Shown: positions 21,087-41,560 of the stretch, piece by piece | How the letters are laid out: each line of letters begins with the position of its first letter | Position numbering within the stretch: the first letter of the stretch is position 1 | Assembly: GCA_003251535.1 (NCBI GenBank) | Contig: QKFD01000006.1 | Coordinates: 1 to 41,712 of the forward strand | Reading direction: 5' to 3' | DNA length: 41,712 nucleotides | Origin: Chromatiales bacterium | Lineage (GTDB): Bacteria; Pseudomonadota; Gammaproteobacteria; Thiohalomonadales; Thiohalomonadaceae | The notes under the pieces: model-generated | What the model saw: the letters and a program-made list of their open reading frames with translations, nothing else | Database searches by the model: none | Told to the model about the DNA's origin: nothing | Position numbers and translations under genes: made by a program

Positions 21087-21124
21087 ACAGGCCGGCCCCA
21101 AAATAGATTTTGGGGCCGGCCTGT
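21087..21124. terminator. perfect 18-bp hairpin terminator after the carbonic-anhydrase-like gene
   Basis: Left arm 21087-21104 and right arm 21107-21124 are perfectly complementary over 18 bp (core GGCCGGCCCCAAAA / TTTTGGGGCCGGCC) with a 2-nt centre. It begins 5 bp past the stop of the carbonic-anhydrase-like gene. The A/T inner half and outer TGT/ACA arms make it work structurally in either direction; the T-tract is short on the minus strand. Confidence 0.75.
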
Positions 21125-21128
21125 TTAA

Positions 21129-21848
21129 TCACCGACCGGCGATGGAGCCGTAGACGGTGCGGTCGTTCAACGGCTGCAGATCCCGCGGCGGGCGTGCCTC
21201 AATGTTCTGGAGCTGCTGAATCTGCTCCGAGGAGGCCTCAAGCGGATACTGCATCACCACCCACTTCACCCCTTCGGTGCAGGGGGCAGTGGTGAGCGAG
21301 CCCTTATAAGCAAAGTAGCCCAGTTTGGTGGGCAGGAGACCAGAGATATCTACCTCACCCGGACCCCCTTCACCCAGTGCCTTGAGCAGTGCGCCGATGG
21401 CGGCGTTCTCCTCACCCGGCAGCATGAGCAGGCCCAACATGGCCATAGAGCCATCCGCCGACTCGTGCAGCAGGTCCAACTCCACCGGCGCATGACGCCC
21501 TTCGCGGGCGTGCTGGGCTGGGGCAGAGACAGAGAGCTGCTTGAGATCGAACATCTTGGGCTTCTCTTCCCCGACGTTCAGCGCCATACCACCACCATCC
21601 TTGACGGTGATAACGTCGCCATCACGGGCCACAGCGCCCACCTGATAGCTGAAATCGATCGGCTGGAGCTTCGCTGCTTGGGGAGTGGCGATATCTACGG
21701 GGGACTGTGCCTGACCACCCTCGCAGAGATTGCTGACCACTTCACTGCTTGTTGCCACCTCATCACTCTGTGGCGGGTTATTGGTACACCCGCCCATCGC
21801 CAGGATGGCGCTGACAATCACTCCTACTGAAAGAAGCCGGTTCTTCAC
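21129..21848 (-). CDS. alpha-carbonic-anhydrase-like lipoprotein without zinc ligands
   Basis: A 239-residue exported protein with a hydrophobic leader ending AMGGC (Cys21, a weak lipobox). The body matches bacterial alpha-carbonic anhydrases: QSPVDI, TVKDGGGMALNV, GSLTTAPCTEGVKWVV, and the disulfide Cys pair C42/C190. However the zinc site is gone. The family's FHFH is LSVS here (S106, S108), and the third ligand in EL-H-LVH is Asp125 (ELDLLH); the N-terminal HWGY segment is also missing. Hydration of CO2 is therefore unlikely. I choose GTG at 21848 because GGGAG lies 6 nt upstream; a GTG at 21869 is an alternative. Last gene of the cytochrome operon. Confidence 0.85.
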   Translation of the reverse strand: MKNRLLSVGVIVSAILAMGGCTNNPPQSDEVATSSEVVSNLCEGGQAQSPVDIATPQAAKLQPIDFSYQVGAVARDGDVITVKDGGGMALNVGEEKPKMFDLKQLSVSAPAQHAREGRHAPVELDLLHESADGSMAMLGLLMLPGEENAAIGALLKALGEGGPGEVDISGLLPTKLGYFAYKGSLTTAPCTEGVKWVVMQYPLEASSEQIQQLQNIEARPPRDLQPLNDRTVYGSIAGR

Positions 21849-21927
21849 CCTAATCTCCCTCGATTCCACGACTTATTGCGGCGCTGGGCCGCGCGTGGTT
21901 TGGCGTATGGAGGAAAGTCGGCAGACG

Positions 21928-21963
21928 CCCCCCCAGCGATGGCTAGCCAAATCGTTGGGGGGG
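21928..21963. terminator. GC-rich hairpin between cytochrome c and the CA-like gene
   Basis: Arms CCCCCCCAGCGAT (21928-21940) and ATCGTTGGGGGGG (21951-21963) pair over 13 bp with one G-T wobble and a 10-nt loop containing GGCTAGCC. It lies 21 bp past the cytochrome stop on the minus strand, in the 136-bp gap before the CA-like gene. It may act as an attenuator that lowers expression of the last gene, or as an mRNA-stability element; there is no U-tract. Confidence 0.45.
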
Positions 21964-21984
21964 GAGACGCCTACCGAACCTCTA

Positions 21985-22290
21985 TCAGGGACGCAGCGAA
22001 CTGAAGTAGGCCGCTGCGTTCGCCATATCGTCATCATTGAGGGCACCCACGATGCCCTGCATGGTGGGCTCAAGGCGGTCACCGCTCTTGAAGGCGCGCA
22101 GCTGTTTCAGTAGGTACTGCTCTTTCTGGCCAGCCAGATTGGGCCACATCGGGGTCACACCGTGACCATCAGCACCGTGACACGCCTTGCAGCGGGTCTC
22201 GGCGAGGACCTTACCAGCGCCCGCGTCAGCAGCCTGGGCAGAGTAGGTCATCAGCATCATCAGCGATGCCAGCACGACTTTCTTCATCAT
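21985..22290 (-). CDS. periplasmic monohaem class I cytochrome c
   Basis: A 101-residue precursor with a signal peptide ending YSAQA. The haem site is CKACH in TRCKACHGADGHGV, followed by MWPNLAGQKEQYLLKQLRAFKSGDR and an axial-Met candidate in PTMQGIVGAL. The length and layout are those of small c4/c5-like electron carriers. GGAG lies 7 nt before the first ATG. It is the middle gene of the tetrahaem/monohaem/CA-like operon and likely shuttles electrons to or from the tetrahaem protein. Confidence 0.93.
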   Translation of the reverse strand: MMKKVVLASLMMLMTYSAQAADAGAGKVLAETRCKACHGADGHGVTPMWPNLAGQKEQYLLKQLRAFKSGDRLEPTMQGIVGALNDDDMANAAAYFSSLRP

Positions 22291-22392
22291 TATTTAGCTC
22301 CTCAAACTAACTCCACGCCGGTGCGTGCCGCACTTTGCACGATCTCCGTACCGGCTTCTCCTGGCGAATAGAGATTAGGTTTTACCAATCGA

Positions 22393-23256
22393 TCAGAAGG
22401 GGTTAAAGAAACCTTCCCCTTGCGTATCAGCGGCAAGCGGCTGAGGCTCAGCAGCAGCAGGTGCTGGCGTCGCCGGGGTCAGCGGACGCGGCTCAGGCGC
22501 ACTCAGACCACCCTGCACATTGAACGTCTGGCGCAGGTCGGCTGGGATCCGCTGGATCGAAGGATCCATCACCCACTTCTCTTTGGTAGCCGTCTGGTAA
22601 GCGGGCAGGATGGAGTTCTTGAAGTCGCCAAGCGGCTGGATGTAAACCGGCGTCGGGTTGGAGACCACCAGCTTCGGGTCGGTCAGTGCATAGGTACCTG
22701 CACCAGCGGACTCGTTCATGGAGGAGAAGACGTGCGGCTTCTTCTCTTGTGCCAGCTGCTGGCCGTAGAACGCCTTGTCCGCCTTGGAGCCGTGGCAGAG
22801 GGCGCAGAACTGACCTACCTTGCTACCGCCACTGGTGTCTACGCGCAGGTAACGCCAGTTGGGGTTGGAGGGGTGGGGGTCATGGCAGCTGACGCACTGG
22901 ATGATGCCGTCCCGCAGTAGCTGGGGAGCCACATCAGCGATCTTCTTGTTGGGCTGCACGTTCACCGGGTGGGTCATATGCAGGTAGATAGGCTTGATAC
23001 CTGCACCACCATACTGCTCGGTGTTGTGGCAACCCAGGCAGAGCGCGGAGATGCCGTCGATGGGCTTACCGGTACGCGGGTTGGGGTACTTGGAATTATC
23101 AACTTTGAACAGTTTTTGCTGCTTGGCGTAGTGAGGGTCGTGGCACCCGAGACAGTCGAGTCCCTCGTGCGGCCCGTACGCGAGTGCCGGCCCTCCTGCA
23201 AACAACTGCACCGCCAGCGCTACGACCGCCAGAGTGACCCAGCGAGTCAGCTTCAT
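22393..23256 (-). CDS. secreted tetrahaem cytochrome c (doubled CxxCH motif type)
   Basis: A 287-residue protein with a signal peptide (residues 1-26, ending ALA). Four CxxCH sites are at residues 35-39 (CLGCH), 73-77 (CLGCH), 121-125 (CVSCH) and 151-155 (CALCH). Two are in the CHDPH context of the doubled-CxxCH family. Extra His residues at 30, 42, 93, 96, 127 and 175 could be distal ligands, giving bis-His haems. The C-terminal third has no haem, is Pro/Ala-rich and ends GFFNPF, an unusual aromatic tail. GGAGGAG sits right before the ATG at 23256. First gene of the operon; electron partner unknown, extracellular polymer formation is only a speculation. Confidence 0.9.
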   Translation of the reverse strand: MKLTRWVTLAVVALAVQLFAGGPALAYGPHEGLDCLGCHDPHYAKQQKLFKVDNSKYPNPRTGKPIDGISALCLGCHNTEQYGGAGIKPIYLHMTHPVNVQPNKKIADVAPQLLRDGIIQCVSCHDPHPSNPNWRYLRVDTSGGSKVGQFCALCHGSKADKAFYGQQLAQEKKPHVFSSMNESAGAGTYALTDPKLVVSNPTPVYIQPLGDFKNSILPAYQTATKEKWVMDPSIQRIPADLRQTFNVQGGLSAPEPRPLTPATPAPAAAEPQPLAADTQGEGFFNPF

Positions 23257-25236: not shown

Positions 25237-26844
25237 ATGTCCAAAAATCTACAGTCGCTCGCCCGCCCCTCCGCCACTGGCGAAACCCCCTTTACCCGGC
25301 TCGGACAGGCCGCAGCGGAGGGACCTCTCACCCCCGCGGCCTTAGCGGCACTGGCCGCCAGCCAGCACTACCCCGCCGCCCCCTTACTCGGCACGCTGTC
25401 GTTCTATGACTTTCTGCGTCCAGAGCAGGGACATAAGCGGGCCTGGCTCTGCCACGGTACCGCCTGCCGCTTCTCCAGTGGACAGGGGCAGGCGCGGGCC
25501 GCCCTGGCAGCGCACTACCCGGCGGAGGAGATCGGTGAGATGGCCTGTGTCGGCCACTGCTACCATGGTGGCGGCCTGGTGGCGGCCGGCCGGAGCCTTG
25601 ATGCCGAGAGCCTGCACCTACTCGACAGCGCAGACCCAGCCGCGCCGATCCCCTTTCACTGCCTGGCCCGTCAGCCGGTGCTCAGTGGCCCCCTCCCCGA
25701 CCTAACCACCCTCTACGCCGCCCTCGCCCTCCCCCCCGCCCAGCTACTGGCAGAACTCAACCACTCCGGCCTGCGTGGCCGCGGCGGGGCGGGCTTCCCC
25801 TTCGCCCGTAAGCTAAGCGCCTGCATGGCGGCACCAGCGGGGCAGAAGTACGTGGTATGTAACGCCGACGAAGGCGATCCCGGGGCCTTCAGCGACCGCT
25901 GGCTGCTGGAGGAGCAGCCCCACCGGGTACTCGCCGGGATGGCCGCAGCGGCCCTCGCCTGCGGCGCCGACCGCTGCATCATCTATCTGCGGGCCGAATA
26001 CCCCCAGGCCTTGCCGCGCTTACAGCAGGCCATCGCAGAGTTGGCGGCGACACCGTTCCAGCAGCAGAGCGGCCTCCATTTTCAGGTGGTGCAGGGGGCC
26101 GGGGCCTATATCTGCGGAGAGGAGACGGCACTCCTCAACTCCATTGAGGGGCGCCGCCCCGAGGTGCGGGTACGGCCCCCCTTTCCGGCCCAGGCGGGCC
26201 TCTTCGACCGGCCGACCCTCCTCAGCAACGTTGAGACCTTCGCCGCCCTCCCCTGGATCCTCCAGCATGGGGGGGCGGCCTATGCCGCCATCGGCACCGA
26301 GAGGAGCAGTGGCACCAAACTGGTCAGCCTCGATCACCGCTTCCTCCGCCCCGGTGTCTACGAGGTGGAGATGGGCATGGGGCTGGCCGATCTCATCCAG
26401 GCGGCGGGGGGGCTACGGGAGCCCATCAAGGCCCTCCAGATAGGGGGTCCGCTAGGGGGGATCATCCCCTTCGATCAGCTCCCCCCACTGACGCTCGATT
26501 TCGAGTCGTTCCAACGCCACGGCTTCCTACTTGGCCACGCCGGGGTGATCGCCCTGCCGACCACCCTCTCGCTAGTGGAGTTTGCCATCCACCTGTTTGG
26601 TTACATGGCGGACGAGTCGTGCGGCAAGTGCGTCCCCTGTCGCCTCGGCACCCGCAGCGGCCACCACCTGCTGCAACAGGCCGCGACCGGCACCCCCATC
26701 GACCGGGCCAGTTTCGACGAGCTACTCACCACCCTGGCAGATGGCTCGCTCTGCGCCCTCGGCGGCGGTCTGCCACTCCCCATGCGCAACCTCCTGGATC
26801 ACTTCCCGGAGGAGTTCGCCCCCCTCTGGTCGAGTGCGGGTTGA
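25237..26844 (+). CDS. NAD-linked diaphorase subunit, NuoE-NuoF fusion (FdsGB/HoxF-like)
   Basis: A 535-residue protein with two parts. Residues ~20-130 are a thioredoxin-like NuoE domain with [2Fe-2S] ligands C72, C77, C104 and C108. The NuoF part has the NADH/FMN motifs GRGGAGFPFARKL (from 181) and CNADEGDPGAFSDR, GAGAYICGEETALLNSIEG, and the [4Fe-4S] ligands C462, C465, C468 and C506. It moves electrons between NAD(H) and FeS clusters. The fused layout occurs in HoxF of NAD-linked hydrogenases, but the next gene, 40 bp on, is a formate dehydrogenase, so it most likely serves as FdsG+FdsB. It might also serve the convergent hydrogenase. Confidence 0.9.
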   Translation: MSKNLQSLARPSATGETPFTRLGQAAAEGPLTPAALAALAASQHYPAAPLLGTLSFYDFLRPEQGHKRAWLCHGTACRFSSGQGQARAALAAHYPAEEIGEMACVGHCYHGGGLVAAGRSLDAESLHLLDSADPAAPIPFHCLARQPVLSGPLPDLTTLYAALALPPAQLLAELNHSGLRGRGGAGFPFARKLSACMAAPAGQKYVVCNADEGDPGAFSDRWLLEEQPHRVLAGMAAAALACGADRCIIYLRAEYPQALPRLQQAIAELAATPFQQQSGLHFQVVQGAGAYICGEETALLNSIEGRRPEVRVRPPFPAQAGLFDRPTLLSNVETFAALPWILQHGGAAYAAIGTERSSGTKLVSLDHRFLRPGVYEVEMGMGLADLIQAAGGLREPIKALQIGGPLGGIIPFDQLPPLTLDFESFQRHGFLLGHAGVIALPTTLSLVEFAIHLFGYMADESCGKCVPCRLGTRSGHHLLQQAATGTPIDRASFDELLTTLADGSLCALGGGLPLPMRNLLDHFPEEFAPLWSSAG

Positions 26845-26884
26845 TCCCCGTGCCGCCTCCAGCGCAGCCCACGGCAGGTACCAC

Positions 26885-29602
26885 GTGACCCCTCAACTCG
26901 CCTACATCGACGGCCACCCCTACCCCATCAACGCCGGCGAAACGCTCTACGAGTTTGTCTCGCGCCACCAAGGGGAGGAGACCATCCCGGTCCTCTGCCA
27001 CGACGTCGCCCTGGAGCCCTTTGGGGCCTGCCGCCTCTGTAGTGTCGAGGTGGCCAACGACGCCAACGGGGCGCGGCGGGTAGTAGCCGCCTGCCACACC
27101 CCTGTGGTCGCCGATCAGCAGATCTTCCCGCGCTCGCCCCGCATCGAACGGCTGCGCCGCTCCATCTTGGAGCTGCTGCTTACCGACTACCCCCCGGAGC
27201 GGCTGCAACCTGCCCCAGGGGAGCGCCCCACCCCCTTCCAGGCCATCGTGGCGCGCTACCAACCCAGTGCCAGCCGCTACCCCCACCTTGCCGCCCCGGC
27301 CGCCGCGGAGAGTGATCACCCCTACCTGCGCTTCGACGGCAGTGAGTGCATCCGCTGCTACCGCTGCATCCGCGCCTGTGACGAGATCCAGGGGCGTTTT
27401 GCCCTGGCAATGTATGGCCGCGGCCAACACAATCGGGTGATCCGCGGCCTCGCTAGTGACTTCATGGCCAGCACCTGCGTCTCCTGCGGCCGCTGCGTGC
27501 AGAGCTGTCCCAGCAATGCCCTGACCGATCGCTACCGCGCCAAGACCACCGCCTACGACCAGCGCGTGCGCACCGTCTGTACCTACTGCGGCGTGGGCTG
27601 CAATCTGGAGGTGCTGGTCAAGGAGGGCGCCATCCAGGCGGTGAGTGCTGCGGAGGATGCCCCAGTCAATCGGGGCCACACCTGCCTCAAGGGGCGCTAC
27701 GCCTTCGAGTATCACCGCCACCCGGATCGGCTCCGTACCCCCCTGGTGCGACGCGCCGGCCAACTCCAGCCAGCGAGTTGGGATGAGGCGCTCGACTATG
27801 TGGCGCAGCGCCTCCAGGCCATCACCACCGCCCACGGCGCCGACGCCGTGGCCGGGATCTCTTCGGCCCGCTGCACCAACGAAGAGAACTACTTGATGCA
27901 GAAGCTGCTGCGGGCGGTGATCGGCAGCAACCACATCGACGGCTGCGCCCGCGTCTGTCACGCCCCCACCGCCTATGGGATGCAGCAGACCTTTGGCACC
28001 GGGGCCGCCACCAACTCCATCGACGAGATCGAGTTGGCCGACTGCCTACTGGTGATCGGCGCCAACCCCACCGACGCCCACCCGGTGACCGGCGCCCGCC
28101 TCAAGCAGCGGGCCCTCAAGGGGGTGCCGCTCATTGTCATCGATCCACGCCGCACCGAGCTGGCCGCCCTCGCTACCCTCCACCTCCAGCTGCGACCTGG
28201 CAGCAACGTGGCCCTGCTCGGCCTGATGGCCCACTACATCGTCGCCCACGGCTGGCTCAACGAGGCCTTTATCGCCGAGCGTACCGAGGGGTTTGAGGCG
28301 TTCCGGCATGAGCTAATGGCGCTCGATCCCGACGCCATCGAGCAGATCACCGGGGTACCCCAGGCGCAGGTCCGGGAGGCGGCCCGTCTCTACGCCCAGG
28401 CAGAGCGGGCGATGGAGTTCCACGGGCTGGGGGTCACCGAGCACTACCAGGGGAGCCGGGCCATCATGGCCATCACCGCCCTCGCCCTACTCACCGGCCA
28501 GGTGGGCCGCCCAGGTACCGGGATCAACCCGCTCCGCGGCCAGAATAATGTCCAGGGGGCGGCCGATATGGGGGTACAACCCAACCTCGGTCCGGGTTAC
28601 CTCGATCTCACCGATCCCGCGGTGCGGGATCACTACCGCCACCACTGGGGCCGTGCGGTGCCCACCCACAGCGGCTACAAGATCCCGGAGATGTTCCGGG
28701 CCGCCCGCGAGGGCCAGCTGAAGGCGCTCTGGGTGGTGGGGGAGGATCTGCTCCAGACCGATCCCAACACCTGCGAGGTGGAGGCGGCGCTGGGTGGATT
28801 GGAGTTTTTGGTGGTGCAGGAGCTATTTCTCACCGCCACCGCCGCCCAGGCCGATGTGGTGCTCCCCGCCAGCTCCCACTTTGAGAAGAGTGGCACCTTC
28901 ACCAATGGGGAGCGGCGCATCCAGCGGGTCAACCAGGCCATCGAGCCCCTGGCCGGGACCCGACCGGACGGGCAGATCCTGGTGGATGTGATGAGGCGAC
29001 TCGGCTACCCGCAAGCGGGCTACGACGCCCCCACCCATCTCCAGGAGATCGCCCAAGTCGTGCCCTTCTTTGCCGGCGTCACCTGGGAGCGGCTAGGAGA
29101 ACACGGCCTCCAGTGGCCAGTATCGGCGGAGGGAAGCGGCACCGCCATCCTGCACCGTGAGCAGTTCGCCCTTGGCCGCGGCCGCTTCCGCTTTCAGCCC
29201 TTCACGGCCAGCCCGGAGTTGCAGAGTGGGGAGGCGGAGTACCCCTATCTACTCACCACAGGCCGCCGCCTGGAGCACTACAACTGCGGCAGCATGACCC
29301 GACGCACCCCCAACGTCCAACTAGTGGGGCGGGATCGCCTCCACATCCACCCGCAGGACGCCGCCCAATACGGCATTACCGAGGGCGATGGGGTGGCTGT
29401 CACCTCCCGCCAGGGGACCACCCACCTCGCCGCCTACCTCACCGATGAACTGGCACCTGGAGTGCTGTTCACCACCTTCCACTTCCCCGAGGTGGCCATC
29501 AACCGCCTCACTGGACCGGTGGCGGATGAGTTTACCCTGACCCCGGAGTTCAAGCTGGTACGAGTGCGCATAGCGCGTCAAGGTGATGCCCTCTCCGCAT
29601 GA
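26885..29602 (+). CDS. NAD-dependent formate dehydrogenase, molybdopterin alpha subunit (FdsA-like)
   Basis: A 905-residue cytoplasmic enzyme. N-terminal [2Fe-2S] ferredoxin: C38, C49, C52, C70. Two [4Fe-4S] sites: C155/158/161/165 and C198/201/204/208. Molybdopterin domain [4Fe-4S]: C232, C235, C239, C267. The metal-ligand motif RVCHAPT gives Cys358 followed by His359, so this is a Cys-type, not Sec-type, formate dehydrogenase. The His/Cys cluster usual in FdsA/NuoG after the ferredoxin is missing (DYPPER instead of a DHPLDC-like motif). It oxidises formate to CO2 or the reverse. GTG at 26885 is the start, just before conserved sequence; the frame is open back to 26582 inside the diaphorase gene. 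No FdhD/FdsC-type gene is seen. Confidence 0.9.
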   Translation: MTPQLAYIDGHPYPINAGETLYEFVSRHQGEETIPVLCHDVALEPFGACRLCSVEVANDANGARRVVAACHTPVVADQQIFPRSPRIERLRRSILELLLTDYPPERLQPAPGERPTPFQAIVARYQPSASRYPHLAAPAAAESDHPYLRFDGSECIRCYRCIRACDEIQGRFALAMYGRGQHNRVIRGLASDFMASTCVSCGRCVQSCPSNALTDRYRAKTTAYDQRVRTVCTYCGVGCNLEVLVKEGAIQAVSAAEDAPVNRGHTCLKGRYAFEYHRHPDRLRTPLVRRAGQLQPASWDEALDYVAQRLQAITTAHGADAVAGISSARCTNEENYLMQKLLRAVIGSNHIDGCARVCHAPTAYGMQQTFGTGAATNSIDEIELADCLLVIGANPTDAHPVTGARLKQRALKGVPLIVIDPRRTELAALATLHLQLRPGSNVALLGLMAHYIVAHGWLNEAFIAERTEGFEAFRHELMALDPDAIEQITGVPQAQVREAARLYAQAERAMEFHGLGVTEHYQGSRAIMAITALALLTGQVGRPGTGINPLRGQNNVQGAADMGVQPNLGPGYLDLTDPAVRDHYRHHWGRAVPTHSGYKIPEMFRAAREGQLKALWVVGEDLLQTDPNTCEVEAALGGLEFLVVQELFLTATAAQADVVLPASSHFEKSGTFTNGERRIQRVNQAIEPLAGTRPDGQILVDVMRRLGYPQAGYDAPTHLQEIAQVVPFFAGVTWERLGEHGLQWPVSAEGSGTAILHREQFALGRGRFRFQPFTASPELQSGEAEYPYLLTTGRRLEHYNCGSMTRRTPNVQLVGRDRLHIHPQDAAQYGITEGDGVAVTSRQGTTHLAAYLTDELAPGVLFTTFHFPEVAINRLTGPVADEFTLTPEFKLVRVRIARQGDALSA

Positions 29603-30579
29603 AACAGGCACACCGCCGGATGATCTGGTTACTGACACTCCTGCTCATACCTCTGGCCGCCCTGCTCTGGGTAGTCCAACCACTGCTGCTACCGGTGCGC
29701 CCCGCCCCCGCCCCAGCGGTGGACCCGGAGCGCCTGCGGCAACATGTGGTCACGCTCTCCACCACCCTCTCCCCGCGCAACGATGACCCGGCACAGCTGG
29801 GTCGCTCCGCCGACTACATCGCCAGCCAGCTGGCCCCCTTCGGCCGCGTAGAGCGCCACCCTTTTGATGTGTGGGGGGTGGGCTATGAGAACGTCTCACT
29901 CACCTTGGGGAGTGGGGCGGGTCCCCGCATTGTGGTTGGCGCCCACTACGACACCGCCGACGGCCTACCCGGTGCCGATGACAACGCCAGCGGCGTGGCG
30001 GGTCTCATCGAGCTGGCCCGCCTGCTGCACCAACAGCGCCCCTCTCGGCCGGTGCAGATCATCGCCTACGCCCTGGAGGAGCCACCCTATTTTGGCAGTG
30101 ATCAGATGGGGAGCGCCCACCACGCCCGTCGCCTGGCCAAGCAGCAGGAGGAGATCGCCTTGATGCTGTCGCTGGAGATGATCGGCTACTTCGATGAGAC
30201 CCCAGGGAGCCAGCACTACCCGCTCCCACTACTGCGCCTGCTCTACCCCGATCGCGGCGACTTCATCGCCCTGGTGGGGGAGTTCGGTGCGGCCGGCATC
30301 GTGCGCCGGGCCAAACGGGCGATGCTGGCCGCCTCCCCTCTACCGGTCCGCTCCATCAACGCCCCCGCCTTCGTGCCTGGCGTTGATCTCTCTGACCATC
30401 GCAACTTCTGGCACCACAACTACCCGGCCTTGATGGTCACCGACACGGCCATGTTCCGTAACCGGGCCTACCACACCGCCCAAGATCGCTGGGAACGGCT
30501 CGACTACCCACGCATGGCCGAGGTGGTCAGGGGGATCTACGGCATCGTCATGGCCTTTGCACCACCCACCGCGGAGTAG
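29599..30579 (+). CDS. membrane-anchored M28 family zinc aminopeptidase
   Basis: A 326-residue protein with an N-terminal transmembrane anchor (residues ~9-30) and a periplasmic M28 domain. The metal ligands are visible: HYDT (H116, D118), GADDNASG (D127/D128), the catalytic EE at 160-161, SLEMIGYF and a late His in YHTAQDRW. It should hydrolyse peptides in two-zinc fashion. It overlaps the formate dehydrogenase stop by ATGA and so belongs to that operon, though a functional link is not obvious. It ends one base from the protease gene on the other strand. Confidence 0.87.
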   Translation: MKQAHRRMIWLLTLLLIPLAALLWVVQPLLLPVRPAPAPAVDPERLRQHVVTLSTTLSPRNDDPAQLGRSADYIASQLAPFGRVERHPFDVWGVGYENVSLTLGSGAGPRIVVGAHYDTADGLPGADDNASGVAGLIELARLLHQQRPSRPVQIIAYALEEPPYFGSDQMGSAHHARRLAKQQEEIALMLSLEMIGYFDETPGSQHYPLPLLRLLYPDRGDFIALVGEFGAAGIVRRAKRAMLAASPLPVRSINAPAFVPGVDLSDHRNFWHHNYPALMVTDTAMFRNRAYHTAQDRWERLDYPRMAEVVRGIYGIVMAFAPPTAE

Positions 30580-30580
30580 A

Positions 30581-31072
30581 TCAACGCCGCGGCGGGCACT
30601 GCATCCGTGACGTTTGAGGGGAGGGAGACTCTGCACTGATCGCCGCCTGGAGGGCCAATAGCGCCTGAGCGAACAGCGCAGGAGAGAGCTGTGGCGAGGG
30701 CGGGGGGCCGATCTCCACCCCGATCACCGTCACCCGCGGGGGCAGCATCCCCAGGGCCTGCCCCAGATCCAGGGCGTGGGCCACACCAAAACCGTGGCTG
30801 GAGAGGAGACCGCTCTCCCCCTCAACCTGCTCCGGCTCAAGGGGACACACCGTCCCCACCGGCAGGCCGGCGCGCATGGCATCCACCAGCACCACCCACT
30901 CGGCCCCCAGCATGGCCGCCAGCAGGCCGGCCCCGGGGCGGTCGCTCTCCACAAACTCCGCCTCCAGCTGCCCCTCCTCGCGCAGCGCCGTCACCAGCTC
31001 CCAACCGATGCGGTCGGCCCCGAACGGCGAGCCGACCCCGATCACGCGCAACGGTGTGGCTAGGCTGGTCAC
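30581..31072 (-). CDS. [NiFe] hydrogenase maturation protease
   Basis: A 163-residue HyaD/HoxW-like endopeptidase. It starts with RVIGVGSPFGADRIGWELV, a variant of the family's GxGNxxxxDDG motif, with D20, D64 in VVLVDAMRAG and H93 in SSHGFG at the Ni-sensing positions. It cleaves the C-terminal extension of the large subunit after Ni insertion. The start is GTG at 31072, overlapping the large-subunit stop by 4 bp (GTGA). The C-terminal ~20 residues are a non-conserved Ser/Pro-rich tail. Confidence 0.88.
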   Translation of the reverse strand: MTSLATPLRVIGVGSPFGADRIGWELVTALREEGQLEAEFVESDRPGAGLLAAMLGAEWVVLVDAMRAGLPVGTVCPLEPEQVEGESGLLSSHGFGVAHALDLGQALGMLPPRVTVIGVEIGPPPSPQLSPALFAQALLALQAAISAESPSPQTSRMQCPPRR

Positions 31073-32367
31073 TGGCGATCAATCTGGAGCGTGAGGAAGT
31101 GGGTGGAGCAGGAGATGCAGGGATCGTAGTTGCGGATCACCGTCTCCCCCCGCAGGCGGATGGCGTCGTCGCTCTGCTGTAGCCCAAACGCCTCCAACGA
31201 CTGCCGCAGGTCCTCCTCGATCCGCGCCTGATTCTGGCTGGTGGGGGGGACAATGGTCGCCTTGACCACCCGCCCTGCCTCATCCATCTCATAACGGTGC
31301 CAGAGAAAGCCCCGCGGCGCCTCGGTGCAGCCGTAACCGACACCGGCCTGTGGCACCGCCTCGGCAAAGGGTGAGCTGGGCAGCTGGTAGGCCTCCAGGA
31401 TACGGATCGCCTCCAGGATGGCGTAGTGGATCTCCACCGCCCTGGCCAGGGCGCTGTGGAAGACATTACGGCTGGGGAAGGTGACCCCCGTGCTGGCAAG
31501 ATTCGCCACCACGGCCTCCGGCAGGCGGTCAAGATTGAGGTTGAGACGCGCCAGCGGACCCACCAGATAGGGCTCACCGTGCAGGTGGCAGTGCAGGGCC
31601 GTGGAGTGGGCCACATGCTGCTCCACAAAGTGCTGCTCAAACTCCTCAATGGGGATGTCGAGCCCACTACTGGTGACAATGCGTCCCTCGTTGAAGGGGT
31701 ACTCCGCCGGATGGCGCAGCGAGGCGTAGATAAATGCCTGCTCCTCCTGCGGCAGCGCCAACGCCCCCACCCAGCGCACCAACGCCTCCGCCTCTGGCAG
31801 GGCGGCCCGCAGCTCCGCCAACATCGTCGCAACCGCCGCCAGTGAGGGGGCGTGGTAGAAGCCACCAACCCGCACCCCCACCGGGTGGACAGAACGCCCA
31901 CCGAGTAGTTTGACCAAGGCATTGCCCAAGGCCTGGAGCCGCAACCCCCGCCTCACCTCCTCGGGGTACTGACCGGCCAGGTGGATGGCGCTGGGGAAAC
32001 CGAGGAAATCGGGGGCCGCCAGCAGGTGGATATGCAGGGCGTGGCTCTCCAGCCACTCGCCGCAGTAGAGCAGCCGCCGCATCTCCCGCACCCATGGGCC
32101 AGGGGCCGCCCCAAAGATGGACTCGATGGCGTGGGTGGCACTCATCTGGTAGGCCACCGGGCAGATGCCGCAGATGCGGGCCACGGTGTCCAGCACCTCA
32201 GAGCTATCCCGCCCCTCCAGAAACTTCTCGAACAGCCGTGGCGGCTCAAAGATACGTAACCGCAGCTCCTCGATCTTGCCGCCCCGGACCGCCAGCTCCA
32301 GTGCCCCCTCCCCTTCGACCCGCGCCAAGACCGGTACGTTGATGGTGATATCGCGTGGTTCGCTCAT
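31069..32367 (-). CDS. [NiFe] hydrogenase large (alpha) subunit, group 3-like
   Basis: A 432-residue large subunit. The L1 motif ARICGICPVAYQMSATHA gives C66 and C69, and the C-terminal L2 motif DPCISCSTH gives C417 and C420; these four Cys bind the NiFe centre. After H423 there are only nine residues (FLTLQIDRQ), which would be removed by the protease encoded next door. The short sequence and the three-cluster partner point to group 3b/3c rather than HoxH of group 3d. GGAG precedes the ATG, which overlaps the small-subunit stop by 4 bp. Soluble, cytoplasmic enzyme expected. Confidence 0.92.
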   Translation of the reverse strand: MSEPRDITINVPVLARVEGEGALELAVRGGKIEELRLRIFEPPRLFEKFLEGRDSSEVLDTVARICGICPVAYQMSATHAIESIFGAAPGPWVREMRRLLYCGEWLESHALHIHLLAAPDFLGFPSAIHLAGQYPEEVRRGLRLQALGNALVKLLGGRSVHPVGVRVGGFYHAPSLAAVATMLAELRAALPEAEALVRWVGALALPQEEQAFIYASLRHPAEYPFNEGRIVTSSGLDIPIEEFEQHFVEQHVAHSTALHCHLHGEPYLVGPLARLNLNLDRLPEAVVANLASTGVTFPSRNVFHSALARAVEIHYAILEAIRILEAYQLPSSPFAEAVPQAGVGYGCTEAPRGFLWHRYEMDEAGRVVKATIVPPTSQNQARIEEDLRQSLEAFGLQQSDDAIRLRGETVIRNYDPCISCSTHFLTLQIDRQ

Positions 32368-33164
32368 GGCTGCCGCTCCTGCCAGCGCCGCCCCTCCTCC
32401 TGGAACTTCGGCGCACCGTTGTTGATAAAGAGGAACTTCTGCCCAATCCGCTCCGGCGCGAGATTGAGGGTGTCGGCAAAACGGGCGGCCAATGAGGCGG
32501 TGTTGACCGTCTCCGCCGGCCCGTAACAGGCGTAGCAGTCACGCTCCACCGCCGTGCAGATGGAGCCGCAACCGGTGCGGGTGACCGGCCCCATACAGGG
32601 CATCCCCTTGGCCACCAAGACGCAGACATGCTGCTGCCGCTTGCACTCGATACAGACCTTGTCCTGCTCGGACACCGGCGCCGCCCCCGAGAGGAGGGAA
32701 CGGACGGCACTAAAGACCTGCCGGGTGTTGACCGGGCAGCCCCAGATCTCAAAATCGACCCGGGCGTGATCGGCGATGGGGGTACAGGTGGCGAGGGCGT
32801 GGATATGTTGCGGACTGGCGTAGACACTGCCGATCCAGGCCTCGGCATCGACGCCATTGCGCAGCGCTTGCAGCCCGCCAGCGGTGGCGCAGGCGCCGAG
32901 GGTGATGAGATAGCCGCTGCGCTCGCGGATGGCCTTGAGCCGCTCCAGCTCGTGGGGGGTGCTGACGCTCCCTTCGATGAAGGCGATGTCCACCACCCCC
33001 TCCTCATCCAGGAAGCCGGCCTCGGCGAAATGGACAAACTCCACCAGGGTTGACAGCTCCACCAGCTGCAACCCGGCGTTGAGAAAGGCGAGCTGACAGC
33101 CGTCACAGGAGGAGAACTTGTGCACAGACACACGGGGCTTGGCCCCGGAGTGCGGAAGCTTCAT
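32364..33164 (-). CDS. [NiFe] hydrogenase small (delta) subunit with three FeS clusters, HydD-like
   Basis: A 266-residue protein. Proximal [4Fe-4S] ligands are C20, C23 (SSCDGCQ), C92 (GACATAGG) and C143 (GCPVN). Eight further Cys at 171, 174, 181, 190, 199, 203, 210 and 213 (CIECKRQQHVC, PCMGPVTRTGCGSIC, CYAC) fit two more [4Fe-4S] clusters. This is the layout of the sulfhydrogenase delta subunit, not of the shorter single-cluster HoxY. No Tat signal, so it is cytoplasmic. ATG at 33164 has AGGAG 7 nt upstream. It is first in the operon; no beta/gamma (FeS/FAD-NAD) genes lie before it. Confidence 0.9.
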   Translation of the reverse strand: MKLPHSGAKPRVSVHKFSSCDGCQLAFLNAGLQLVELSTLVEFVHFAEAGFLDEEGVVDIAFIEGSVSTPHELERLKAIRERSGYLITLGACATAGGLQALRNGVDAEAWIGSVYASPQHIHALATCTPIADHARVDFEIWGCPVNTRQVFSAVRSLLSGAAPVSEQDKVCIECKRQQHVCVLVAKGMPCMGPVTRTGCGSICTAVERDCYACYGPAETVNTASLAARFADTLNLAPERIGQKFLFINNGAPKFQEEGRRWQERQP

Positions 33165-33567
33165 TACGTAGCTCCTTTTATAGTTGGTCAGTGCTGCCGA
33201 CCGCGGGACACCCGACCCAATCCCCGTCGCTCCCCCTGGGGTGGCTGCCACGACCCAACAGACGGCGGATAGGGCTCCATTGTAAGCCTCCGCTCGCCCG
33301 CCTGCCCGAGCCTAACGGGTCCGTTGGACTGCACCAGGGAGCATACGCCGCGAGGGGGGGCGCTTCAATCGCGCCCACCACCCTCTCGCCGCGACTTGGG
33401 GATAGCCACCCGATAAACGCTGGGCAGGCCACTAGGTAGGGGATGCTAGAAAGGGGTAAACCAAGAGGGGACGGTCGGCCTCAGACCACAAGCAGGAGGG
33501 GGCGGCGGCCAGAGTGCGCCCATACCGCCTCATTGCACGGGCCGCCGGAGGGGTCGCTACCCCCCAC
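33165..33567. other. intergenic region upstream of the hydrogenase operon
   Basis: About 400 bp with no supported gene. It must contain the hydrogenase promoter (minus strand). Frames open through it lack ribosome sites and conserved sequence. I see no clear -35/-10 pair or strong hairpin. Confidence 0.5.
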
Positions 33568-35252: not shown

Positions 35253-38102
35253 TTACTTCTGCCGGTGGCAAAGACCACACCCCACGGCCGTGCCCTTGGG
35301 GATCACCGCCGTCGCCTGCCCGGCTGCACAACCGGGCAGACTGCCGCTGGTGTCCTTGCAGCGCACGGTACGCTCCTCCGCGGTGCGCGAGAGGACGCTA
35401 CCGGTGAGATCGGCACCATGGCAGGAGTTGCAGCCAGGCCCGCTGTTCCGATAGGCCTTGTGCTGGAGATTCCAGCGGTCATCGGCCACAAACGCGGGGT
35501 TAGAGAACTCCAGATCGGAGATGGCGTGCATCCCGTGGGGACCATTGTTGCCCAGGGGCAGCGAGGTGTCGGTGGGCTGGTGACAGACCTGGCACTCGGC
35601 GATGTAACCGGAGTGGCCTTGCAGCTGCTTGGCCGGCAGGTTGTCGTTGGCATTGGGATTGCTGCTGGGCCACTCGGCGTGGGTACTGCCGTGGCAGGCC
35701 TCACACATCAAGCCGCCATGGCCACTACTCACCCGGTAGAGCTTGGGATTGCCCGCCGCGCTGCCCCCAGTGGCCACCACACTCTCGGCAAACTGCTTGT
35801 TGATCGGCACGATCGGCGTGGCCTTGGCGTCATTGGTGCGATAGGCCGCCAGTAGCCGGATCCCATCGGTCACCCCGCTACTATCGGTGGGATTCACCAA
35901 TACATTGGCGTCCCCTGCCAAGTTGTCGATGGCGTTACCCGTGTGGCAGGAGCCGCAGCTCGGTTCATTGGCCCAAGGGACGCGAGGGGTGGCCTGGTTG
36001 TGGTAGAAGTCCGCGGCCAGCTCAAAGGCCCCAGGGTTGGCGGGTGAGACATTACGGGAGAAGTCATTGCCCACCTGGCTCATATTGCCGTGGCAATCCT
36101 GGCAGACCAGCCCCCCATTGGCCATCGCCCCCCTCATGCACTGGGTGCGTCTGCCGGGATGGCAGCGGTAGCAGGTCTGCTCAAGCACCTGCTGGGTAGT
36201 CACCGGGCTACGCCGACTCCCATTGGCGTCCATGGCCGGCGGCATGGCCGGAAATAGGCCACTGAACTGCCCATGGTAGCTGTGCATCACGTTGGACATG
36301 GTGCGGTGCTTGAACTGGTCCCGCCCATTGGCGGCACTCCCCGCATTCTCCGGTCCCACCGGCCCCTGCTGCGCCAGATCTAAGGCCGGCGAGTAGTGGC
36401 AGCGTTGGCAGATCACCGGATTGGCCGCCCGCCCCGAGGTGGGATCGATGGTGCTCTCAAGGCTGGTACCGTGCTTCTGATCATGGAGACGCAGAATATT
36501 GAGATCACTACTCCACTCAACGCTCACCGCATTGGGGACCGAGCCGTGCGCGGGGTCATCGAGAGAGGTGGCTACGGTGGTGAGATCGCCGATGGCCGCC
36601 CCATTGCCCCCATCCACCTCGGCGGCGTGACAGGCCTGGCAGTCGGCCTCGCCCGAGATGGGTACCACCGTATCGAGAGAGGCCACCGCCTGACCGGCCA
36701 CCTTCGCCTCCAAGTGCAGTAGCGGATAGGGGTTTTCACGCCCGGCATCATCAAACGGGGCAACGGGGATCCCCGCCGCCTCAGACCAGTTCACATTGGC
36801 CACATAGCCAAACGGAAAGCTCGTGAAGAATGGCAGATCGGTGACATGCTCTTCGACCAGCTGGGGCTGATTGCTGGTATAGGGCCCAGTGAACCCAGGC
36901 ATCGCCTGCTGTGAGACATGCAGGGTGCCATCCCCCAGATAGAGCCGCTCCACATCCGGCACCGGTAGGCCGAGGTCCACATTGATCGCCGGGGTGTTGG
37001 GGTCGTAGTACTGGCTCAGCAGACCAGGCGGATAGAAGGGGTCATAGGCCTGATAGGCCACCTCCCAGAAGTTGCTCTTATAGACCTCTCCATTGACCAC
37101 CGAGGAGAGCACCTGACCACTGGTGGCCTTGGCGATCGCCGGGTCACTGGGGTTGGCGGCGGCGCTGTAGTAAATCTGCGCCTCCCCCTCCCCCATCACC
37201 CGCGGCAGACCGCTGATACCGCGCGCCACCACCTGGGCATGAACCACATTAAAGGGAGGCAGGATGCTCGATAGCCGCGTGTCCAGATCACCGCAGTGCA
37301 TACCGAGATCATTGATCGCCAATAGGCGGTAGTCCGAGCCACTCACCGCCGTCGGCTCAGCCACGGCCACCGCCGCTAGCGGCCCATTGGCGCTGGTGGA
37401 GTTGATGGAGACCTCATTGGCCCCCGCCACCCCAATGGTGACCGTGGCCTGGTTGGAGGCGCCACCGGCGTCATTGGCGGTGTAGACAAAGCTATCGGCG
37501 CCGGTATAACCGGCGTCCGGCGTATAGCTGAAGCCGCCATCGGTGGCCAGCAGTAGCACCCCATGGCTGGGGCCGCTGCCTGCCACCCATTGGGCCGTGA
37601 TGGGGTCACCATCGGGGTCGTTGTCATTACTGAGCACCCCGGGGGCGATGACCACCAGCGGCGTCGCCTCTGTCGTGTTGTACTCATCCCCCTGGGCCAC
37701 CGGCCGGCTATTGGTAGCCGAGGTCACCTGCACCGTGCGCGTGGCTGAACAGCTCTTAGGATTGCGGGGATCACTATCCGTGGCGGCGAGGGTCGCAGTG
37801 AAGCTCCCGGCCGTGTTGTAGGTCACCAAGTGGGTCGCCGTGGCGCTACCGCTACTGGGCAGCGTCTCGCTCGCGGAGGCCGGCTGACCACCGGAGAAGG
37901 TCCAGGTAACGCTATAAGGTGCCGTCCCATCGACCACCACCCCCTGGAAGAGGAGCGAGCCCCCCGAGGAGATGGAGACCACCCCACTCTGGGGGGAAGA
38001 GATGGTGCAAACGGGGGGCTTGGCTAAGGCGGTGCTGGGGAGCCCATAGATCCCCATGGTAACCAGCGCCGGATAGAGCCAGTGGCGTAGCAAGGGAGAC
38101 AT
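35253..38102 (-). CDS. secreted nonahaem cytochrome c with PKD/Ig-like N-terminal domains
   Basis: A 949-residue exported protein (leader ending STALA). Residues ~28-125 are a PKD-like Ig domain, and ~130-225 a cadherin-like Ig domain (SNDNDPDGDPIT, SFVYTANDAGG). Residues ~240-480 hold the NDLGMHCGD...LPPFNVVHAQV module known from other large multihaem proteins. The C-terminal half has nine CxxCH sites: CQACH, CQRCH, CYRCH, CQDCH, CGSCH, CEACH, CQVCH, CNSCH, CGLCH. The protein probably works at the cell surface in extracellular electron transfer, with Ig domains for adhesion (inference). ATG at 38102 with GGAGG 7 nt upstream is preferred to the longer frame to 38330. Confidence 0.9.
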   Translation of the reverse strand: MSPLLRHWLYPALVTMGIYGLPSTALAKPPVCTISSPQSGVVSISSGGSLLFQGVVVDGTAPYSVTWTFSGGQPASASETLPSSGSATATHLVTYNTAGSFTATLAATDSDPRNPKSCSATRTVQVTSATNSRPVAQGDEYNTTEATPLVVIAPGVLSNDNDPDGDPITAQWVAGSGPSHGVLLLATDGGFSYTPDAGYTGADSFVYTANDAGGASNQATVTIGVAGANEVSINSTSANGPLAAVAVAEPTAVSGSDYRLLAINDLGMHCGDLDTRLSSILPPFNVVHAQVVARGISGLPRVMGEGEAQIYYSAAANPSDPAIAKATSGQVLSSVVNGEVYKSNFWEVAYQAYDPFYPPGLLSQYYDPNTPAINVDLGLPVPDVERLYLGDGTLHVSQQAMPGFTGPYTSNQPQLVEEHVTDLPFFTSFPFGYVANVNWSEAAGIPVAPFDDAGRENPYPLLHLEAKVAGQAVASLDTVVPISGEADCQACHAAEVDGGNGAAIGDLTTVATSLDDPAHGSVPNAVSVEWSSDLNILRLHDQKHGTSLESTIDPTSGRAANPVICQRCHYSPALDLAQQGPVGPENAGSAANGRDQFKHRTMSNVMHSYHGQFSGLFPAMPPAMDANGSRRSPVTTQQVLEQTCYRCHPGRRTQCMRGAMANGGLVCQDCHGNMSQVGNDFSRNVSPANPGAFELAADFYHNQATPRVPWANEPSCGSCHTGNAIDNLAGDANVLVNPTDSSGVTDGIRLLAAYRTNDAKATPIVPINKQFAESVVATGGSAAGNPKLYRVSSGHGGLMCEACHGSTHAEWPSSNPNANDNLPAKQLQGHSGYIAECQVCHQPTDTSLPLGNNGPHGMHAISDLEFSNPAFVADDRWNLQHKAYRNSGPGCNSCHGADLTGSVLSRTAEERTVRCKDTSGSLPGCAAGQATAVIPKGTAVGCGLCHRQK

Positions 38103-38660
38103 CGGTGACCTCCATGGATGAGTAAAAAACCGACCGGTGGTGCCTGTCCGAGCCGTCTCCGCGCATCCGCGGAGACGGCCCAAGCATCTGGGAAACAGGG
38201 AGATGGCCACCCCGCAGGGACAGAACACAGGGGGCAACGTGCCGCCCAAAGGGTCGCCGGCGAGCGGCAACCCCAGCCGGGGCAGCGGGGTAGAGAGAGG
38301 CAACAGGGGGCGGCAGTGGAGAACACCCACACACCGCTAAATGGGAAAATTGCTGACTAGAAAGGCGTGGCGCAACCCACCCGGCGCTACTCAGTGACCG
38401 AGCTGGCGACAGGGCGGTCGCCGACGTACTCCTCAGCTTCCCTAGCCTTTGCACGATATCCCCATCCATGGATTCTTAAGAGGTACATAAGGGTACCCCT
38501 ATTTGATGACGGGGCAATCACTTCAAAGGGGTAAGTGGCCACTTTGTGAAGAGGATGGGAGGCTTGTCACCCTTTTTGCGCCCCCTACCCCGGCCCAGGG
38601 GGGGCCAAGGCCCACGGGCCAGCGGCGCTCCACCGTAGACGGCTCAGCGGCAAAGAGCCC
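38103..38660. promoter_or_regulatory. intergenic region upstream of the nonahaem cytochrome gene
   Basis: About 560 bp with no supported gene. A perfect 12-bp palindrome AAGTGGCCACTT lies at 38533-38544, inside a larger imperfect repeat (CTTCAAAG at 38521-38528, CTTTGTGAAG at 38542-38551). A GGGTACCC palindrome is near 38493. These could be operators for the cytochrome gene or the 3' end structure of the neighbouring membrane gene; neither is proven. Confidence 0.3.
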
Positions 38661-40880: not shown

Positions 40881-41015
40881 TCTAAATAGCCCAAACCTGG
40901 GCTCGGGTGAGGTCGCCCTGCTCAATGGCGGCAGCAGCGAAGGCATGGCAGGAGGATAGGCACAGCACATATCCGCGCCCCCTTCATATGAATCGTGGAT
41001 AGCAACATAGCGACT

Positions 41016-41560
41016 CAGTTCATCCCCGCGCACGCGGGGAACACGAGAGACCCTTCTCGACGATGCGGTCGAGGGTCGGTTCATCCCCGCGCACGCGGGG
41101 AACACCCGCCAGTACATTTTCATGTTCCGCGCTCTATCGGTTCATCCCCGCGCACGCGGGGAACACGGGGCGCGCTGGCGCTGCTGCCCTCAGGCGAGCG
41201 GTTCATCCCCGCGCACGCGGGGAACACATAGTGCCCCACGAGGCCGAGATCGTGAGGGACGGTTCATCCCCGCGCACGCGGGGAACACTTCTTGGTCGAG
41301 GCAGACAGTCGATTGAACTCCGGTTCATCCCCGCGCACGCGGGGGATACGGTTCATCCCCGCGCACGCGGGGAACACTTGCGTGGCGCGTGATAATGCGG
41401 CGTCTGCGTCGGTTCATCCCCGCGCACGCGGGGAACACTCTGCCAGCGCCTTGGAGACCTGGGCCATGGGCGGTTCATCCCCGCGCACGCGGGGAACACG
41501 TGGCGTACCTCCGGAGCCGTGGGGCGGATCACGGTTCATCCCCGCGCACGCGGGGAACAC
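41016..41560 (-). CRISPR. type I-E CRISPR array, 10 repeats, 8 spacers
   Basis: Ten 29-nt repeats start at 41016, 41077, 41138, 41199, 41260, 41321, 41349, 41410, 41471 and 41532. In transcript sense (minus) the unit begins GTGTTCCCCGCGTGCG and ends GGGGATGAACCG, a type I-E (E. coli-like) repeat with a GC stem. Spacers are 32 nt, giving a strict 61-nt period, except that repeats at 41321 and 41349 follow with no spacer. The leftmost repeat has a G-to-A change at position 2 and the repeat at 41321 has an altered end (GGATAC for GAACAC). A mutated leftmost repeat suggests that end is oldest. No cas genes are in the window. Confidence 0.98.

Follow-up and report, generated by a model that had tools for sequence, protein, structure and literature searches.

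We analyzed a 41,712-nucleotide stretch of contig QKFD01000006.1 (the window), which belongs to the Chromatiales bacterium assembly GCA_003251535.1 in the family Thiohalomonadaceae. The minus strand carries three consecutive genes for a tetrahaem c-type cytochrome, a monohaem cytochrome c and a putative lipoprotein with an alpha-carbonic anhydrase (alpha-CA) fold. This third protein, called CA-like here, lacks all three zinc-binding histidines, and a counterpart of the trio, also without an intact zinc triad, is present in a second genus of the family. We propose, with a probability of roughly one half, that the CA-like protein is a catalytically dead, membrane-anchored binding partner without enzymatic function of the cytochromes encoded beside it.

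Results

An alpha-CA fold without the zinc triad. The CA-like protein scores 76.8 bits (E 2.6e-21) against the Pfam model Carb_anhydrase (PF00194), above the curated cut-off of 27, which places it in the family. Its best sequence relative in the PDB is 6im0, a bacterial alpha-CA (E 6.6e-32). The AlphaFold2 (AF2) model has low confidence, with a predicted local distance difference test score (pLDDT) of 50.7 and a predicted template modelling score (pTM) of 0.54 from six sequences in the alignment. This low-confidence model matches alpha-CAs best, with a Foldseek E of 1.7e-12 to 6im0 and a VIA Z of 14.9 to 1kop.

In CA II numbering, we take the zinc ligands to be His94, His96 and His119 and the proton shuttle to be His64. 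The first-pass annotation of the window had placed Ser106, Ser108 and Asp125 at the three ligand positions, and the alignment confirms this (SSD; Table 1). Catalytic alpha-CAs have three histidines there (HHH); the CA-like protein of the second genus has His, Thr and Gln (HTQ). The Cys pair (C42 and C190) and the motifs QSPVDI and PCTEGV are retained, also as annotated. The Glu106 position is occupied by Gln112. The NNGH motif that contains His64 reads RDGD in the window protein and FDQP in the second genus. His is found at this site in 83 of 94 HHH rows, with the other 11 gapped or lacking it, so the motif is not strictly defining. The window protein falls into the descriptive class of acatalytic CA-related proteins (CARPs), which have a CA fold with at least one zinc His missing. 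A sequencing error, the artefact that had been considered, is very unlikely, because the codons TCT, TCT and GAC are five base changes away from His and the second genus also lacks the triad.

A non-catalytic role is likely because the ligands, the proton-shuttle motif and the N-terminal arm described below are all lost; the protein would contain no zinc and would not hydrate CO2. The window genome also encodes an alpha-CA with three His and a beta-CA, so the CA-like protein need not serve as the enzyme there. Judged by eye, its lipobox (AMGGC) is weak, and that of its counterpart in the second genus (LIGC) is canonical.

The trio in a second genus. The family sample comprised 20 genomes including the window's own, and a gene-order search returned the same 20. 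Among them, the trio has a counterpart in one other genus only, in the "Ectothiorhodospiraceae" metagenome-assembled genome (MAG) CSSed162cmB_532 (G010; record SLDE01). There it is split over two contigs. The body of the tetrahaem gene ends contig C135 (record SLDE01000183, whose locus L102 matches P0006 at 100%), and contig C7 starts with the last tetrahaem codons (...RFFNPYE), directly followed by the monohaem gene and then the CA-like gene. We infer that the two contigs adjoin. Identity between the window and G010 is 64–66% for the tetrahaem, 49–50% for the monohaem and 34–35% for the CA-like protein, and the latter scores 63.2 bits against PF00194 in G010.

Both CA-like proteins lack the N-terminal HWxYxG..GP..W arm and the NNGH motif, and both keep two Cys, QSP, GSL and PCTEGVxWVV. 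The last Trp of the arm is found in 37/37 other alpha-CAs and is absent from the pair; all 37 are HHH (locus L007 was left out of this comparison). The reading frames of the pair are intact, with 0.73 nonsynonymous (dN) and 2.15 synonymous (dS) substitutions per site. These values point to purifying selection on the gene, though dS is near saturation. The trio has different flanking genes in the two genomes. In the window they are serS and a GSDH-family gene; in G010 they are a cbbR-like gene and, by eye, cytochrome maturation genes that we take to be ccmF, ccmG, ccmH and ccmI. Ligand loss and cytochrome linkage, the two properties that the first-pass annotation had suggested following in homologues, are both kept in this second genus. 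No homologue with three His was found beside the same cytochromes.

The G010 trio lies near a RubisCO gene (NF010002, 906.8 bits), presumably of form II, and the cbbR-like regulator (266 bits, below the cut-off of 450). We considered and rejected a link of the trio to CO2 fixation: in place of the RubisCO/cbbR setting of G010, the window carries serS, cysG and a formate dehydrogenase/hydrogenase cluster.

Frequency of zinc-triad loss. In a class draw of 369 genomes, 84 matched the window CA-like protein. Our census of 103 loci combines the class matches (all but a weak one in G165, E 3e-4) with the family loci and six Aquificota CAs. Because similarity to the window CA-like protein was the selection criterion, the census does not sample alpha-CAs at random. 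A single place enters twice (L032 and L184 of G090), L236 is counted once despite its two CA genes, and partial genes are included. Three loci (L002, L003 and L008) repeat genes of the window genome, and L003 represents the window in the census; for L004 we used the complete protein P0004, which is L170 there. The second tree and the census include L007, which the first tree does not. CA rows were trimmed to start 60 amino acids ahead of the match and to span no more than 330 amino acids, and L212 and L221 were shortened at the N-terminus. The tree contains no vertebrate rows.

HHH is present at 93 of the 103 loci, two lack the ligand columns, and eight, including the window and G010, have fewer than three His (SSD, HTQ, MQY, AHQ, DHQ, RIQ, RLQ and QRQ). 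These eight fall in about five places on the tree, which implies about five origins. The window and G010 proteins form one clade with the ligand columns removed (support 96/98), and in the smaller tree a branch with 93/93 support likewise has both on the same side. The gene order that they share supports this grouping independently.

The six ligand-less loci outside the pair (L212/L250, L217/L251, L221/L253, L222/L254, L242/L255 and L007/L058) have no recognisable cytochrome gene in the stretches read, with one side barely seen for L251, L253 and L254, which lie near a contig start. In the open reading frame (ORF) lists for L250–L255 and L058, CxxCH occurs only singly, in L250:6043-6456 and in L252:7561-8019, where L252 is an HHH neighbour. 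The CA genes of L250 and L253 are missing from the ORF list, in which larger overlapping ORFs were preferred. The census and tree rule out that ligand loss as such is unique to this operon. A general linkage of ligand-less CAs to cytochromes was likewise rejected, as the six outside the pair lie among other genes. Zinc-site loss recurs, and to date only the window and G010 combine it with these cytochromes. The comparison with vertebrate CARPs made in the first-pass annotation stands as an analogy only, given four other ligand-less lineages in the class sample with no cytochrome neighbour in the readable stretches.

Used alone against genome contigs, the CA-like protein found no relative. Plasmid records gave 193 matches, all below 60% identity (29–36% among the matches listed). 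Two class searches, each of 369 genomes and drawn from nearly the same sample, so that they do not count as independent, yielded nothing else close to the similarity within the pair.

Several of the other ligand-less proteins have features of their own. The CA-like protein at L058:9438-10319 (G015, same family; M, Q and Y at the ligand positions) has an N-terminal transmembrane-like segment by eye and no CxxCH ORF listed nearby; we take the ORF beside it to be UbiD-like. The triad-less proteins at L251:905-1738 and L212 (G070, G312), L254:1-807 and L221 (G089, G218) and L255:8703-9400 (G084) read DHQ, AHQ, RLQ, RIQ and QRQ. All five have Gln at the His119 position, and the G084 gene is split by a stop.

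The cytochromes. The tetrahaem scores 45.9 bits against Paired_CXXCH (PF09699, cut-off 20.6) and has four CxxCH motifs, which places it in that family. The monohaem, with one CxxCH and 44.3 bits against Cytochrom_C (PF00034, cut-off 21.3), is a class I cytochrome c. Its next-best family relatives are, among the matches listed, mostly ORFs of about 200–230 amino acids that align at 42–53% over nearly the whole monohaem length, and many of the listed ones have a second match further along. The monohaem looks as if it were half of what we take to be a cytochrome c4.

Scanning genome contigs with the two-sequence tetrahaem alignment gave 49 loci, 12 of them at 55–64% identity: G010, nine from Aquificota (Aquificales, Aquificaceae and Persephonella; two from one genome) and two from SulCav MAGs labelled Caldithrix and Turneriella. 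We read the isolate name SulCav as sulfidic cave. Four Myxococcales/Anaeromyxobacter loci have 45–46% identity, and the other 33 are weak. In a class sample of 185 genomes, no tetrahaem match came close to the 65% identity of G010; 23 genomes other than the window's own had weak matches (best E 1.3e-8). This patchy spread suggests horizontal transfer of the tetrahaem. The two SulCav loci have a different small monohaem gene upstream. Of the 14 genomes that carry tetrahaem loci L103–L117, six have an alpha-CA, in each case HHH.

The tetrahaem C-terminus is FFNPF in the window and FFNPYE in G010. The 11 Aquificota and SulCav tetrahaems stop by about residue 266 of the window tetrahaem, often in a Lys-rich end, and none ends in FFNP. 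The AF2 model of the tetrahaem is poor (pLDDT 51.9), as expected without haem; the low pLDDT of the tail, in a model poor overall, is in keeping with disorder. The FFNP[F/YE] tail of the CA-linked tetrahaems is a candidate docking element. We rejected FFNP as a general sorting signal, because a scan for C-terminal FFNP[FY] gave one match in the window genome (the tetrahaem tail) and two in G010, one being the tail and the other not at an open C-terminus.

Gene layout. All three genes named in the first-pass annotation are present on the minus strand as described (Table 1), in the order tetrahaem, monohaem, CA-like, closing hairpin, followed by serS and cysG. The hairpin is there too, with a stem of 17 pairs instead of the reported 18 and without a T-run directly after it. 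The start codon of the CA-like protein is most likely the GTG at 21848. G010 has a stem-loop of different sequence at the same site between the monohaem and CA-like genes (L057:489-562, z -2.82). These stem-loops between the second and third genes of both genera could result in different transcript levels.

Table 1. Features of the gene trio, in window coordinates
Feature	Position	Strand	Remarks
Tetrahaem c-type cytochrome, Paired_CXXCH	22393..23256	minus	287 amino acids, 4 CxxCH; secretion signal by eye
C-terminal Pro/Ala-rich tail of the tetrahaem	22396..22518	minus	residues 247-287, ending FFNPF
Monohaem class I cytochrome c	21985..22290	minus	101 amino acids, one CxxCH; secretion signal by eye
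Intercistronic stem-loop, monohaem/CA-like genes	21914..21982	minus	z -3.45 (stretch 21849-21984)
Alpha-CA-fold putative lipoprotein without zinc triad	21129..21848	minus	239 amino acids; lipoprotein-like signal by eye
Ser106 codon, His94 position	21531..21533	minus	TCT; zinc ligand position
Ser108 codon, His96 position	21525..21527	minus	TCT; zinc ligand position
Asp125 codon, His119 position	21474..21476	minus	GAC; zinc ligand position
Hairpin 3' of the CA-like gene	21087..21124	minus	17-bp stem, 4-nt loop; z -7.53

Other features of the window. A cluster at 25237-33251 encodes a NuoF-like diaphorase, a formate dehydrogenase alpha subunit with a HoxU-like N-terminus, and a sulfhydrogenase-like NiFe hydrogenase with its maturation protease. 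Of the NCBIfam models matched there, those for formate dehydrogenase and the protease exceed their cut-offs and the others fall below. The cluster possibly encodes a soluble formate/NAD/H2 complex. On the minus strand, a 1025-amino-acid ORF (35253-38330) has bacterial Ig/cadherin-like domains and nine CxxCH motifs, and may be a surface multihaem cytochrome. An array of clustered regularly interspaced short palindromic repeats (CRISPR) at 41006-41560 has 10 copies of a repeat (GGTTCATCCCCGCGCACGCGGGGAACAC) roughly 28 nt long; most are spaced 61 nt apart, and one step, at 41311-41339, is 28 nt. We take the array to be type I-E-like.

Discussion

The arrangement that we propose begins with a lipid anchor on the CA-like protein. 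By the lipoprotein sorting rule for residue +2, which is Thr or Ala here and not Asp, the protein would probably be in the outer membrane. It would hold the periplasmic tetrahaem close to the membrane, and the monohaem would shuttle electrons to or from the tethered tetrahaem. A bolder step is that the disordered FFNP[F/Y] tail of the tetrahaem may be the docking peptide for the CA-like protein. The first-pass annotation had suggested a structural or docking partner of extracellular cytochromes. The joint persistence of triad loss and cytochrome linkage in a second genus supports part of this reading; the extracellular placement found no support. Judged by eye, the secretion signal of the tetrahaem is a plain one without a lipobox, which makes the periplasm its default location.

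The full version of the docking idea is that the CA-fold lipoprotein is a peptide-docking module that captures the FFNP[F/Y] tail and pins the haem relay to the membrane, with tail and receptor acquired together after the tetrahaem entered this gammaproteobacterial family. We regard this as speculative and unlikely.

Several observations weigh against a binding partner of the cytochromes. The trio is carried by only two genera, in 2/20 family genomes, and a genome of the same genus as G010 (G011) has neither the CA-like gene nor the tetrahaem. G010 is a MAG broken inside the operon, with the junction of its two contigs inferred. This MAG is 95% complete; protein and alignment searches found no other alpha-CA in it and no beta-CA was found either, so the argument from redundancy fails there. 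The CA-like protein evolves faster than its neighbours (35% identity versus 65% and 49%), a pattern not usually seen with a tight interface. Long branches underlie the clade of the pair, so long-branch attraction is a caveat. Fifteen tetrahaem loci (L103–L117) have neither a CA-like gene nor this monohaem gene in the available flanks, several of which are short on one side (e.g. L109 and L110). Tail and CA-like gene represent one shared event each, and finding them together therefore does not count as independent statistical evidence. A stem-loop also separates the monohaem and CA-like genes, so the three genes may not share one transcript.

One alternative is that the old active-site cleft has been repurposed for a small molecule or anion (e.g. 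carbonate, a sulfur oxyanion or an organic ligand), in which case the protein would act next to the cytochromes as a chaperone or a sensor of its ligand. Both proteins retain the CA core together with the GSL..PC loop lining the cleft, and ligand-less CA folds elsewhere, such as CARPs and vaccinia D8, do bind. We nevertheless consider it unlikely, because the cleft residues are not conserved within the pair: S, S and D versus H, T and Q at the ligand positions, T199/T200 kept versus S/M, and Q versus E at 106. Since the former zinc-site residues differ while the fold core and gene order are kept, a structural or binding surface is preferred to a repurposed metal or anion site, and the comparison speaks more for a scaffold or surface function than for a conserved ligand in the pocket. 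The same variability argues against an enzyme that works with another metal or with none. T199, E117 and PCTEGV are kept in the window protein, but the pair shares no conserved metal-capable set (S, S, D versus H, T, Q) and the His64 motif is gone from both, so we consider residual catalysis highly improbable.

The CA-like gene could also be a passenger, a decayed alpha-CA paralogue that follows the cytochromes and either moonlights or has no role linked to theirs. Triad loss has about five origins in the sample, and outside this trio the gene neighbourhoods are unrelated; the CA-like gene is the fastest-evolving of the trio; and a hairpin lies between it and the second gene. Against this, the gene is intact and full-length with a signal sequence, holds the same position in two genera, and has dN/dS well below 1. 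The linkage also persists though the genes on both sides differ between the window and G010. A passenger is a minority explanation, about as improbable as a repurposed cleft.

To our knowledge, most known CA-fold proteins without catalytic activity come from animals and viruses. Among the matches listed by a literature search that covered few subscription papers, neither a bacterial CA-related lipoprotein nor this gene trio was described. The trio is a bacterial case whose gene context, shared by two genera, points to likely partners and offers a short candidate interface. The recurrence of zinc-triad loss in Gammaproteobacteria (8/103 loci) also means that calling every PF00194 protein a carbonic anhydrase would mislabel some.

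The closest relatives of the CA-like protein in sequence and fold are the secreted bacterial alpha-CAs of Persephonella (6im0), Neisseria (1kop) and Thermovibrio (4c3t), which are catalytic enzymes. Its sequence relatives are HHH at 93/103 loci, whereas the window protein is SSD. The Paired_CXXCH tetrahaems of Aquificota and SulCav are 55–64% identical to the first gene product of the trio, but they stand alone, or beside a different monohaem at the two SulCav loci, and lack the FFNP end. The CA-like envelope protein D8 of vaccinia virus appears in the structural match list (4etq, Z 12.8). It uses a ligand-poor CA fold for binding, as a viral glycan receptor, and has no cytochromes. Vertebrate CARPs also work by binding. 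A passage of PMC9032886 describes CARP VIII, X and XI (printed there as 'IX', where we take XI to be meant) as catalytically inactive alpha-CA isoforms missing one to three zinc His. The window protein shares with them the loss of zinc His from an alpha-CA fold; it differs in being a bacterial putative lipoprotein encoded beside cytochromes, and in having also lost the His64 motif and the N-terminal arm.

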